Assembly (NCBI GenBank): GCA_011742915.1
Contig: JAAQTN010000002.1
Location: 62,001 to 126,000, forward strand
DNA: 64,000 bases
Direction of reading: 5' to 3'
Origin: Billgrantia desiderata
Lineage (GTDB): Bacteria; Pseudomonadota; Gammaproteobacteria; Pseudomonadales; Halomonadaceae
The notes under the pieces: generated by a model
Told to the model about the DNA's origin: nothing
The model's input: only the letters and a program-made list of their open reading frames with translations
The model's database searches: none
Made by a program: the position numbers and the translations under genes
Part shown: positions 17,639-55,066 of the stretch, one piece after another
Layout of the letters: each line of letters opens with the position of its first letter
Numbering within the stretch: position 1 is the first letter of the stretch

Positions 17639-17781
17639 AGAGGGTGTTTACAAAAGTCACGAGGGAAGGCCAGACAAGGCGAAATAGACTGAAAAAACGG
17701 AGTTTACGAGCGGCTAAATGAGTATTTTGAAGTCGATTTCAACGCAGTATGGCCGAGCGCAGTAATTTGTAGACACCCTCT
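17639..17781 (-). repeat. dispersed structured repeat element, copy 1
   Basis: A 143-bp element with 16-bp terminal inverted repeats (17639-17654 and 17766-17781, one mismatch). Inside are nested stems: GAAATAGACT (17681-17690) with AGTCGATTTC (17731-17740), an A-run with ATTTT (17724-17728), and GTTTA with TAAAT around 17702-17719. It shares the blocks GGCCAGACAAGGC, CGGAGTTT, AAATGAG and TATGGCCGAGCGCAG with the copy at 35359-35474, while the stems differ and still pair. Its right end overlaps the TAA stop of the MATE gene. There is no transposase. Confidence 0.85.
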
Positions 17782-19193
17782 TACACTTTTGGTCGCACCG
17801 AGCCAGCGTCGTGCGCCGCCCCCGGCATGTCGTCGAGACGGCGGCGCAAGGTTGCCCAGGCCACCAGGCCCACCGCCACATTGGCCAGGAACAGCCCGAT
17901 GAAGATGCCCTCGACGCCGCCCAGCACGCCACCCAGCCACGCCAGCGGCACCGTCAGCAGGAACAGTCGAACCACCGAGAGACGCATGGCGCGGGCCGGT
18001 TCGTGCAGCGCATTGAACGACGACACCGCCAGGATCACGACGCCTTGGGCGCCCAGCCCCAGCGGCACCCACCACAGAAAGCTGCGCAGCACCTCGCTCA
18101 TCTCGCCGCCCGGGGTATAGCTGGCGACGAGCCAGGGAGCCAGCAGCTGCAGTAGCAGCCAGATACCGAACTGCCACACCAGCACGAAGACGAAGCAGCC
18201 GAAGATGGCCCGCCGTACGCGCTCGTGCTGCCCTGCCCCGGCGTTCTGGCTGACCAGCGGCGGCAGCGTCATCGACAGCGCCAGTACGCCGATCTGAGCG
18301 ATGGCCTCGATGCGCGTGCCCACGCCGTAGCCCGCTACCGCATGGTGGCCGTGGCCGGCGACGATGCGGGTCACCAGCGCCAGGGCCAACGGCGTGAACA
18401 CGCTGGTGATCGCCGCCGGCACGGCAATGCGGCCCAGCTCGCGCCACGACGCCAGCAGCCCGCTCGGTGTGAGATGGCGCAGGTCGAGGCACTCGCGCAG
18501 CTCGCGCTGCCAGTACAGCGCCGCGGTCATGGCGCTCCAGCTCAGCACCGTGGCCAAGGCCGCGCCCTGCACGCCGAGCGCCGGCAGCGGCCCCACGCCG
18601 AAGATCAGCAGCCAGTCGAGCAGGCCGTTGAGCAGTGCCGCCAGCGCCATCATGAGCCCGGGGATCAGGGTATTGCCCTGGGCCCGCAGCACGCTGTTGA
18701 GCACCCGCGGCACGATCAGCACCGCCGCGCCCAGGTACCAGATGCCCATGTAGTCATGGATGTGCGGCATGAGTGTGGCGTCTGCCCCCAGCAGCCGGAA
18801 CAGCGGCTCCAGCGTGGCCAGGCCGAGCAGGCTCAACACTACGCCGACCGCCAGCGCCAGCAGCGCGGCATCGGTGGCCCTGCGCCGCACCGTGTCGTGA
18901 TCGCCCCGTCCCAGCAGGCGCGCCACCACCGCCGAGGTACCGATGCCCAGACCGATGGCGAGGCTGATCACCGCGAACACCACCGGAAAGGTGAACGACA
19001 CCGCCGCCAGCGGCTCCGCTCCCAGCCGCGCGATGAACCAGGTGTCCACCAGGTTGAAGCTCATCATGGCAAGCATGCCGCCCACCACGGGCAGACACTT
19101 GCGCAGCAGGGTCAGGGCAATGGGACCTTCGAGCAGCTCACGGCGCATGGGGCGGCGTTCGCCGGAGCCGGAACGTGGGGAAGTGGATGTCAT
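17781..19193 (-). CDS. MATE family efflux transporter
   Basis: A 470-residue inner-membrane protein with about twelve hydrophobic segments in two similar halves, as in NorM/DinF-type multidrug and toxin extrusion carriers driven by Na+ or H+. Family features include FNLVDTWFIARLGAEPLAAVS in the first helix pair, a GTSAVVARLLGRGD loop, RVLNSVLRAQGNT, and GYGVGTRIEAIAQIGVLAL in the second half. The substrate is unknown. The ATG at 19193 is preferred over a GTG at 19220 that would lie inside a long hairpin. It follows the valine-degradation genes on the same strand but is separated from them by that hairpin. Confidence 0.92.
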   Translation of the reverse strand: MTSTSPRSGSGERRPMRRELLEGPIALTLLRKCLPVVGGMLAMMSFNLVDTWFIARLGAEPLAAVSFTFPVVFAVISLAIGLGIGTSAVVARLLGRGDHDTVRRRATDAALLALAVGVVLSLLGLATLEPLFRLLGADATLMPHIHDYMGIWYLGAAVLIVPRVLNSVLRAQGNTLIPGLMMALAALLNGLLDWLLIFGVGPLPALGVQGAALATVLSWSAMTAALYWQRELRECLDLRHLTPSGLLASWRELGRIAVPAAITSVFTPLALALVTRIVAGHGHHAVAGYGVGTRIEAIAQIGVLALSMTLPPLVSQNAGAGQHERVRRAIFGCFVFVLVWQFGIWLLLQLLAPWLVASYTPGGEMSEVLRSFLWWVPLGLGAQGVVILAVSSFNALHEPARAMRLSVVRLFLLTVPLAWLGGVLGGVEGIFIGLFLANVAVGLVAWATLRRRLDDMPGAAHDAGSVRPKV

Positions 19194-19209
19194 GAAGCCT
19201 CGGAAACCA

Positions 19210-19237
19210 GAAGCGGGCACAAGATTGTGCCCGCTTC
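19210..19237. terminator. hairpin between HIBADH and MATE genes (possible terminator)
   Basis: A near-perfect stem of up to 13 bp, GAAGCGGGCACAA (19210-19222) with TTGTGCCCGCTTC (19225-19237). On the minus strand it is followed only by TGGTTTCC, so the U-tract is poor; it may attenuate rather than fully terminate. Confidence 0.5.
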
Positions 19238-34710: not shown

Positions 34711-35358
34711 ATGAGCCGCCCTCTCACCTCGCGCCAGCAGAACGTGTACGACTTCATCGTCAAGACCATGCAAGAGCTCGGCTACCCTCCCACTCGGGCC
34801 GAGATCGCCCGGGCCCTGGGTTTCCGCTCACCGAATGCCGCCGAAGAGCACCTGCGTGCGCTGGAGCGCAAGGGCGTGATCCGGGTGATACGCGGCACTT
34901 CGCGCGGCATACGCCTGCCGGCTCAGGAGAACGATACCGCCGCCCTGGAGCCCAGCAGCGAGGGATTGCCGGTGATCGGTGAGGTCGCCGCCGGCAGCCC
35001 GATCCTCGCCGCCGAGCATATCGACCGCTACTGCCCGCTGCCGCCGGACTACTTCACGCCCCGCGCCGACTACCTGCTCAAGGTTCGCGGCCTGTCGATG
35101 AAGGATATCGGCATCCTCGAAGGCGACCTGCTGGCGGTCCATCGCACCGAGCGTGTGCGCGACGGCCAGATCGTGGTGGCACGCCTCGAAGACGAGGTGA
35201 CAGTCAAGCGCTTTCATCGCCAGGGGCACCGCGTCGTGCTGGAAGCGGAGAATCCCGAGTTCGCTCCCATCGAGGTCGACCTGCGCCATCAGGAACTCGA
35301 GATCGAGGGGATTGGGGTGGGGGTTATACGCGGCGGCAACGGCCAAGCTTTAGGGTAA
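34711..35358 (+). CDS. lexA: LexA repressor
   Basis: A 215-residue SOS repressor. The N-terminal winged helix is at residues 1-65 ([34 protein letters not shown]). Autocleavage occurs at the Ala-Gly bond in [10 protein letters not shown] near 97. The catalytic Ser is in [13 protein letters not shown] near 130 and the Lys in [11 protein letters not shown] near 167. RecA-stimulated self-cleavage derepresses SOS genes. GGAG lies 7 nt before the ATG, and a LexA box precedes it. DinB polymerase follows, with a structured repeat element between the two genes starting directly after this TAA stop. Confidence 0.97.
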
Positions 35359-35474
35359 GAGCTGGCTGCGCTCGGCCATACGGCGTTAAAAATTGGCTTA
35401 AAATGCTCATTTGCAAAAGCAAACTCCGCTTTTTCGCCAATTTTTGCCTTGTCTGGCCTTCGCTCGCTCAGCTC
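35359..35474 (+). repeat. dispersed structured repeat element, copy 2
   Basis: A 116-bp element homologous to 17639-17781 in opposite genomic orientation. Outer pair GAGCTG (35359-35364) / CAGCTC (35469-35474). A perfect 10-bp stem AAAAATTGGC (35388-35397) / GCCAATTTTT (35436-35445), an AAAA/TTTT pair, and an apical TTTGC (35410-35414) / GCAAA (35419-35423) with an AAAA loop. Conserved blocks shared with copy 1: CTGCGCTCGGCCATAC, GCGTT, CTCATTT, AAACTCCG, GCCTTGTCTGGCCTTC. It begins immediately after the lexA stop codon and ends 20 bp before dinB. Confidence 0.85.
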
Positions 35475-35494: not shown

Positions 35495-36544
35495 ATGAGT
35501 CGCAAGATTCTGCATGCCGACTGCGACTGCTTCTATGCCGCAGTGGAGATGCGCGACAACCCGGCGCTGCGTGAGGTGCCGCTGGCCATCGGCGGCAGCG
35601 CCGAGGGTCGCGGGGTGATCGCCACCTGCAACTATCCGGCGCGGGCCTATGGCATCCGCTCTGCCATGCCGACTGCCAGGGCTCTGCGCCTGTGCCCCCA
35701 CCTGACCCTGCTCAAGGGTGACTTCGATCGCTACCGCGAAGCCTCGCAGCAGCTGCTGGCCATCTTCCACGAGCTGACTCCGCTGGTGGAACCGCTCTCG
35801 CTGGACGAGGCCTTCCTTGATGTTACCGACGTCACCCGCTTTTCTGGCAGCGCCACCTGGATGGCGCGCTGGTTGAAGGAGGAGTGCTTCAAACGCGTCG
35901 GGATCACCGTCTCGGTGGGCGCGGCCCCAGCGAAATTTCTGGCCAAGATCGCCAGCGACTGGGAGAAGCCGGACGGCCTCACCGTCATCGCTCCGGACCA
36001 GGTAGACGAGTTCCTGCGCCAGTTGCACGTGACCAAGCTGCATGGGGTCGGCCCGGCCACGGCCAAGCGTCTCGAGACGCTCGAGATCGTCACCTGCGAA
36101 GATCTGCAGCAGGTTCCGCTGGAACGCCTGCTGCAGGAGTTCGGCAAGTTCGGTCGCCGCCTGTTCGAACTGTCGCGGGGCATCGACGAGCGGCCGGTGC
36201 GTATCGAGCGCGAGCGCAAGTCGGTGAGCGTGGAGACCACCTTTGCCAGCGACCTGCCCGACCTGGCCCAGTGCTACGAACAGTTGATCCCGCTCTGCGA
36301 GCGACTGGAGGCGCGTCTGGCTCGCCACGGCCACCCGCCCGTGTCGGGCGCCTTCGTGAAGGTACGCTTCGACGACTTTTCGTTGACCACGCTGGACTCC
36401 CGCGGCGCTTCACCCAGCGCGGAGACCTTCGCCTCGCTGATGGAACAGGCCTGGGCCAGGCAACGGCGACCGGTGCGCCTGCTCGGCGTGGGAGTGAGGC
36501 TGGTATCGGACGATGCCAGGCGCCAGCTCAGCCTGCCCTTCTGA
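35495..36544 (+). CDS. dinB: DNA polymerase IV
   Basis: Y-family translesion polymerase, 349 residues. The palm motifs are HADCDCFYAAVEMRDNP at the N-terminus (first metal Asp) and PLSLDEAFLDVT near 100 (catalytic Asp-Glu). The thumb helix-hairpin-helix (LHGVGPATAKRLE) lies near 180, and the little-finger domain covers the last ~110 residues. The C-terminal QLSLPF is a beta-clamp-binding motif of the QLxLF type. No LexA box was seen directly upstream; it may be transcribed from lexA through the repeat element or from a promoter inside it. Confidence 0.96.
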   Translation: MSRKILHADCDCFYAAVEMRDNPALREVPLAIGGSAEGRGVIATCNYPARAYGIRSAMPTARALRLCPHLTLLKGDFDRYREASQQLLAIFHELTPLVEPLSLDEAFLDVTDVTRFSGSATWMARWLKEECFKRVGITVSVGAAPAKFLAKIASDWEKPDGLTVIAPDQVDEFLRQLHVTKLHGVGPATAKRLETLEIVTCEDLQQVPLERLLQEFGKFGRRLFELSRGIDERPVRIERERKSVSVETTFASDLPDLAQCYEQLIPLCERLEARLARHGHPPVSGAFVKVRFDDFSLTTLDSRGASPSAETFASLMEQAWARQRRPVRLLGVGVRLVSDDARRQLSLPF

Positions 36545-54872: not shown

Positions 54873-54949
54873 TGGTAGGACCAAGCGGATTTGAACCGCT
54901 GACCTCCACGATGTCAACGTGGCGCTCTAACCAACTGAGCTATGGTCCT
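54873..54949 (-). tRNA. tRNA-Val (anticodon GAC), copy 1
   Basis: 77 nt including encoded CCA. Acceptor stem AGGACCA/TGGTCCT, D-arm TAGCTCAGTTGGTTAGAGC, anticodon stem CCACG/CGTGG with loop TTGACAT, T-arm AGCGG-TTCAAAT-CCGCT, discriminator A. It differs from copy 2 by one compensated pair in the T-stem. Confidence 0.97.
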
Positions 54950-54989
54950 GAAACTATGTGAAACCGTGTCGAAAAAGCCGACAGAAAGC

Positions 54990-55066
54990 TGGTAGGACCA
55001 GGCGGATTTGAACCGCCGACCTCCACGATGTCAACGTGGCGCTCTAACCAACTGAGCTATGGTCCT
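54990..55066 (-). tRNA. tRNA-Val (anticodon GAC), copy 2
   Basis: 77 nt including CCA. Identical to the neighbouring copy except for a G-C in place of A-T at the outer T-stem pair (GGCGG/CCGCC). It is the promoter-proximal gene of the two-gene transcript; the spacer of 40 bp holds no other gene. Confidence 0.97.

Follow-up and report, generated by a model that had tools for sequence, protein, structure and literature searches.

Two hairpins of Billgrantia desiderata as probable members of a structure-defined superfamily of small mobile elements that includes ERIC

Two intergenic elements in a 64,000-nucleotide stretch of the Billgrantia desiderata genome (the window, meaning the whole stretch of DNA that was analysed) share short unpaired blocks and differ in their stems. 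It is likely that they belong to a superfamily of small non-autonomous mobile elements, defined by structure and including the enterobacterial ERIC repeats, in which the outer stem provides the transposase ends and the core is kept for its fold. The stems of copies from many genomes covary, models built on them find relatives across the order and the phylum, and the ends of type A, the commonest Halomonadaceae subtype, are those of IS5-type insertion sequences (ISs).

The two hairpins of the window

Each of the two copies is one long hairpin, of 143 bp in copy 1 and 116 bp in copy 2, compared with ~146 bp for type A. Their parts are listed below, with bit scores from the model R1 described in the next section.

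17639..17781, + strand: element copy 1, type C ends AGAGGGTGTTTACAAA; R1 120.8 bits
17639..17654, + strand: outer stem / terminal repeat of copy 1, 5' arm, from arm comparison
17766..17781, + strand: outer stem / terminal repeat of copy 1, 3' arm, from arm comparison; followed by TA
17668..17680, + strand: conserved block GGCCAGACAAGGC of copy 1
17681..17690, + strand: middle stem 5' arm GAAATAGACT of copy 1, from the fold
17698..17705, + strand: conserved block CGGAGTTT of copy 1, and start of the apical stem
17716..17722, + strand: conserved block AAATGAG of copy 1
17731..17740, + strand: middle stem 3' arm AGTCGATTTC of copy 1, from the fold
17748..17762, + strand: conserved block TATGGCCGAGCGCAG of copy 1
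35359..35474, - strand: element copy 2; R1 130.5 bits
35446..35458, - strand: conserved block GGCCAGACAAGGC of copy 2
35430..35445, - strand: inner stems of copy 2, 5' arms; partner 35388-35403
35388..35403, - strand: inner stems of copy 2, 3' arms; partner 35430-35445
35366..35380, - strand: conserved block TATGGCCGAGCGCAG of copy 2

Copy 1 has an acyl-CoA dehydrogenase gene on one side and a MatE-family gene (17781-19220, - strand) on the other. The TA right after its 3' arm is part of the stop codon of the latter gene, and CTC precedes its left end. The stop codon of lexA (35356-35358) directly adjoins the first base of copy 2, and a Y-family polymerase gene (35495-36544; "dinB" hereafter) follows the element; TTA stands next to the right end of copy 2 and not the left. 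Both copies are antisense to both of their flanking genes. The window also carries two tandem tRNA-Val (gac) genes on the - strand (54873-55066).

Compared with dinucleotide shuffles, both copies folded stably, with minimum free energies of -48.1 (+) and -40.6 (-) kcal/mol for copy 1 (z -4.56 and -4.49) and of -47.9 (+) and -55.2 (-) kcal/mol for copy 2 (z -4.61 and -5.71). The 16-nt outer arms of copy 1 are 94% complementary and the 16-nt middle arms of copy 2 are 88% complementary. Exact occurrences of GGCCAGACAAGGC and TATGGCCGAGCGCAG in the window are confined to the two elements, one of each per element; when up to three mismatches were allowed they had 31 and 5 matches in the window, against shuffle means of 31.6 and 4.6. 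The preliminary description had reported unpaired blocks common to both elements and stems that differ between them, and both observations were confirmed. It had also proposed a comparison with Rfam. At the gathering threshold the window returned two tRNAs alone and no family over either element, and four loci of the same genome searched at E<=10 returned six matches, none covering the element; neither search thus matched the elements to a curated RNA family.

Distribution of the family and covariation of its stems

A three-block pattern scan of species genomes yielded at least 117 loci. The matches numbered at least 122, of which 112 were extracted, 8 were without the end motif used and 2 lay too near a contig end. 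Among the matches listed, all but five loci belong to Halomonadaceae genera according to record titles; the five are from Pseudomonas aestuarii, P. mendocina, Pokkaliibacter, a gammaproteobacterium without further assignment (MFB021) and a Desulfobacteraceae metagenome bin. Alignment A2 comprises 47 copies, namely 52 non-redundant elements of the 112 minus 5 with inserts. A2 was made with MAFFT alone, the structure used was predicted from A2 itself, and R1 was built from it. R1 found 45 matches at E<=0.1 in the genome of the window (the own genome), including subtypes of very different sequence (47 matches within 43 loci), with 2 of the 45 inside a called gene and 1 at a locus edge. Within the order, R1 detected members in 27 of 56 genomes, the own genome being one of them. 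A second model, R2, was built without enterobacterial sequence on 76 loci holding 82 copies, which were of the Halomonadaceae type or otherwise from the same order, and detected the family in at least 76 of 249 genomes of the phylum, own genome included; the R2 genome counts are floors because 13 candidates were scored per genome.

Several arrangements were seen among these copies. Three elements of two subtypes lie within ~1.8 kb of the own genome (L186:897-2668), and two further own-genome subtypes (L174-L177, L184-L186, L188) have the same loop motifs with GC-rich stems and other ends. In four copies other hairpin sequence stands in place of the 5' half or breaks into it, of one kind in L170 and L171 and of another in L163:1296-1422 and L189. 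Five copies (L102, L107, L119, L126, L141) carry an insert past the TTTGA motif and ahead of the middle stem's 3' arm, and its position hardly varies among them. Short relatives in one genus of the class (L253, L256-L259, L265-L268, L274-L277) have a tightly conserved apex (GGAG-stem-TGAGCA).

The preliminary description had taken the stem differences of the two copies as compensatory and had proposed to collect copies genome-wide and examine their covariation. Copies were collected and aligned, and compensation turned out to be general: in A2, 97.2% of cells were paired and both sides had changed in 17 of 29 pairs, with a covariation of 0.318 against 0.133±0.007 in shuffles and at most 0.070 with slid partners. 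Among 31 matches from other genomes of the order (A4), 95.2% of cells were paired, 26 of 29 pairs were doubly changed and still paired, and covariation reached 0.644 (0.189±0.013 shuffled; slides at most 0.113), although A4 was fitted to R1 and is thus biased towards the structure. The outer stem lies outside the A2 structure and was analysed by swapping arms in the 28 of 47 A2 elements that miss the strict type A expression. Own partners averaged -19.8 kcal/mol, as against -9.6±0.64 with swapped arms (500 swaps, lowest -11.8).

On the described strand, G-U cells outnumbered A-C cells by 30:10 (A2), 31:22 (A3), 33:7 (A4) and 50:25 (A5, which used 76 chosen loci), and the internal loops read GA/GA. 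The G-U excess is a weak sign that the described strand may be the folding one; it is weak because the cells are non-independent, the A3 ratio is 31:22 and the model to which A3-A5 were fitted permits G-U pairs.

We then compared the two sites of the window between genomes; for each site 60 genomes matched, 30 of them with loci, and all 30 were read. Between lexA and dinB the element occupies the same place in 10 of 30 loci of the genus, own genome included, and four further loci (L342, L343, L344, L356) hold apparent remnants after internal deletion. Directly after lexA in genome G397 (L361), at the element's place, lies ~1 kb of sequence that starts with the type A IS end GGCTTTGTCCGAAAAGTCGG. 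In genome G381 the lexA-dinB flanks are 93-94% identical to those of the own genome (G000), whereas its copy 2 shares only 23 of 44 inner-stem bases, as compared with 35 of 41 unpaired bases; 20 of its 22 inner pairs form, and 9 pairs are changed on both sides with pairing kept. G401 and G425 have nearly the same allele as G381, and G429 and G403, with less similar flanks (88-89% identical), have nearly that of the own genome. Therefore, one allele takes the place of another at this site, their loops being similar and their stems for the most part different. It is possible that this happened by exchange between species or by a second insertion, and the G000 and G381 alleles are unlikely to have diverged gradually in place. 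In the ten one-site copies (A6), double changes were found in 12 of 29 pairs and the score was 0.317 against 0.158±0.017 in shuffles; the measure of further pair types showed no excess over shuffles in A6 (497 of 500 reach it). At the copy 1 site the element is complete in the own genome only and truncated after the left arm in G381; none was seen in the other 28 of the 30 loci read, and G390 has another copy ~1 kb from the site.

Covariation, including that between the two lexA-dinB alleles, speaks for probable selection on the fold in addition to the ends. The earlier proposal of selection on structure is thus supported by compensatory changes in copies from many genomes.

Outer arms, insertion sites and orientation

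The ends GGCTTTGTCTGAAAAGTC, or close variants of it, were read in eight ISs 912-913 bp long that come from six Halomonadaceae genomes, and seven of the eight ISs have TA on both sides. The reading frames of two such ISs were assigned to DUF4096 (orfA, 9.5e-30) and DDE_Tnp_1 (orfB, 3.3e-18). Ends of this kind were found in 16 of 30 DUF4096-gene loci from 61 genomes, two of them with CGCTYTGTCTGAAAAAT ends; the TA flanks in this search are not independent evidence because it rewarded them. The 18 bases of GGCTTTGTCTGAAAAGTC occur exactly in the left arm of 10 of the 112 extracted elements, and 11 elements have one of the two forms of the CGCTYTGTCTGAAAAAT ends, without any mismatch, in their right arm (3 have one form and 8 the other). 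In 76 of 112 elements an arm is within one substitution of the IS end consensus, with 0 in the reversed-sequence control, and TA is present on both sides of 47 of the 73 elements in which both type A ends were recognised. Among the end types compared, ends in common with an autonomous IS were found for type A.

Inside the ISs of 20 loci the hairpin core gave no model match, the single match lying outside the IS, and the idea that the element is an internal deletion of the IS is unsupported, as the core is absent there. No match to the DUF4096 transposase was found in the own genome, though type A copies are present. No IS with the type C ends of copy 1 was found among 34 matches in 81 genomes (30 loci fetched, four without locus); 23 of these 30 loci hold full elements (R1), and by eye seven others (L364, L367, L371, L378, L379, L382, L390, of which L367 is the same place as L379) look like arms with the core deleted or truncated. 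Likewise, no IS with ACAGGCYGTTGAAAAA ends was found: three matches in six genomes carried no model match and by eye look like remnants of element arms. A comparison of L395 and L400 with L151 gave no clean empty site with target duplication, the flanks being too diverged. In L371, L379, L390 and L394 we also noted short palindromes in which the outer arms remain and the core is gone, a form that deletion of the hairpin between its arms would leave.

In the own genome the right end lies at the stop codon of an opposite-strand ORF (>=100 codons) in 39 of 45 copies, versus 8% of random placements drawn in the same loci (L190 and one partial match were left out of the 45). By orientation, these copies comprise 27 with the right end only, 3 left only, 12 both and 3 neither (binomial p 8e-6). 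Order-wide, with an 80-codon limit, the corresponding counts for 25 of the 31 matches were 15, 3, 1 and 6 (p 0.0075). The Halomonadaceae scan set (104 of the 112 extracted elements, the other 8 being own copies) gave left only 32, right only 23, both 15 and neither 34. Combined counts are used throughout because the split into type A and other relies on a strict expression and "other" retains type A relatives. Among ERIC loci, the right end is at an opposite-strand stop in the annotated L191, L193 and L408, the left end is at a same-strand stop in the annotated L410 and L411 (same gene context) and L414, L409 has both kinds of stop and L413 neither; L412 and L415 carry no annotation. Closeness to stop codons is general, and may reflect TA targets within stop codons. 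The orientation bias is not general across sets, and a universal orientation rule was dropped, as the Halomonadaceae scan set is unbiased and the annotated ERIC loci are mixed.

Relation to ERIC, alternative explanations and known systems

On E. coli ERIC loci, R1 scored 10.1-11.6 bits, not clear of background (an adjacent non-ERIC match had 10.5). R2 scored 17.5 bits on E. coli ERIC, in register over the whole element; with filters off in 50 kb of E. coli K-12, the ybhI-ybhJ ERIC was the best of 27 matches at 17.5 bits, followed by one at 10.9. R2 also found L272 with 33.5 bits (E 2.7e-6 for that genome), which by BLAST matches repeats in Salmonella, Escherichia and Klebsiella records. We treat ERIC and these elements as one superfamily because R2 finds both E. 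coli ERIC and L272. The preliminary description had recognised no named family and had held that a match to a described repeat family would count against its reading. As the elements group with the described ERIC repeats by model score, the first statement does not hold as worded and the name is refined; the structural signal remains. Its phrase "not just a decaying transposon" is likewise unsupported as framed, since the family also looks mobile by its IS5-type ends, TA flanks and dispersal.

The mechanism that we favour would be as follows. One strand folds into a long hairpin. Its outer stem varies, its unpaired blocks (GAGCGA, ACAAGGC, GA/GA, GGAG/TGAG, AACGC and GAGCGCAG) are conserved, and its inner stems are free in sequence as long as pairing is kept. 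Outer stems would serve as transposase ends and differ between subtypes. Because the type A outer stem is the terminal inverted repeat of IS5-type ISs, with TA flanks, we infer that type A is mobilised in trans by that transposase, and copies 1 and 2, which have other end types, would have arrived likewise with other transposases. Stop codons contain TA, and insertion points cluster there. The core, which is not part of the IS, would be kept by selection on the folded strand and most likely acts as RNA on neighbouring transcripts, by analogy with ERIC in Yersinia. In a bolder form that we regard as possible yet rather doubtful, ERIC and its Pseudomonadota relatives would be one lineage of structured parasites in which the folded strand is needed for spread and the outer stem is re-tuned or exchanged to suit the host's IS5-type transposase.

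The same hairpins could instead be a family of cis-acting RNAs at gene 3' ends (a stabiliser, processing site or insulator) that does not move, is vertically inherited and looks mobile because it is common. Copy 2 at one place after lexA in 10 of 30 loci, with remnants in four more, and the 39 of 45 own copies with right ends at opposite-strand stops (8% at random) agree with such a family. It is nonetheless unlikely given the many unrelated sites at which type A copies resemble one another, are flanked by TA and have ends that match the IS, the copy 1 site, complete in one genome, truncated in G381 and without an element seen in 28 loci, and the lack of orientation bias in the scan set (32 left only, 23 right only of 104). 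We consider a structured single-stranded DNA substrate of the REP/IS605 or attC kind, with a mobility protein that recognises the folded strand and outer arms that are secondary, to be slightly less probable again. Fixed unpaired blocks with free stems would suit it, as would the G-U excess on the described strand and the GA/GA loops, whereas the strand sign is weak for the reasons given above and the ISs that type A matches in its ends are of the DDE type, which acts on double-stranded DNA.

Convergence of hairpin repeats on an ERIC-like form, with no common ancestry, stays a live rival because the E. coli ERIC score is modest and R1 is non-separating, and ERIC stems have no clear sequence in common with these elements; 17.5 bits with R2 and 10-12 with R1 agree with it. 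The order of the motifs and the register of the match over the element (CAAG, GGAG-CUUAC-loop-GUAAG-UGA, AACGCAG), together with the 33.5 bits of L272, make it the least probable of these explanations. If the superfamily reading is correct, it extends well beyond the enterobacteria and contains a subtype with real IS ends. We know of no account of what moves ERIC, a strain-typing tool for decades, and this question becomes testable. The two lexA-dinB alleles, whose loops are the same although most of the stem sequence differs, point to selection on the fold and not on the ends alone.

The motif strings of the elements had no occurrence in the PMC literature searched, and no description of the family was found among the titles and abstract openings listed for literature on Halomonas or Halomonadaceae repeats, on ERIC in Halomonas, Pseudomonas or Gammaproteobacteria, on ERIC-like MITEs and on the origin of ERIC. 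A 2011 paper, known by its title, reportedly treats ERIC among Gammaproteobacteria genomes. Four further R2 matches (L249, L262, L263, L271), found in two genomes of one genus with L272 in one of them, may resemble YPAL / RU-2 of Yersinia. PMC2267715 describes the pseudomonad stem-loop families Pae and Ppu as intergenic and predicted to fold. The present elements are like them in both respects, and some of their relatives could already be listed there under Pae/Ppu names. Like MITEs of IS5-type ISs, type A elements have IS ends and TA flanks; unlike them, they have an interior that did not arise by deletion within the IS and that folds in a conserved, covarying way of its own.

The closest known system is ERIC (also IRU or RU-1), likewise a short intergenic imperfect palindrome (ERIC ~127 bp) with MITE-like features, which a review places in Enterobacteriaceae and Vibrionaceae (PMC10969869). 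According to PMC2229807, ERIC has terminal repeats, a target duplication and 5'TA3' at its termini, and in Yersinia it destabilises upstream transcripts in an orientation-dependent manner. The terminal TA compares with TA on both sides in 47 of 73 type A elements with TA on the right side only in copy 1, and with TTA on the right side only in copy 2. The same loop motifs occur in the same order in ERIC, which R2 finds, with a modest score in E. coli. In contrast, the stems and outer arms differ from those of ERIC, many subtypes coexist in one genome, and the range of the present elements is an order and a phylum.
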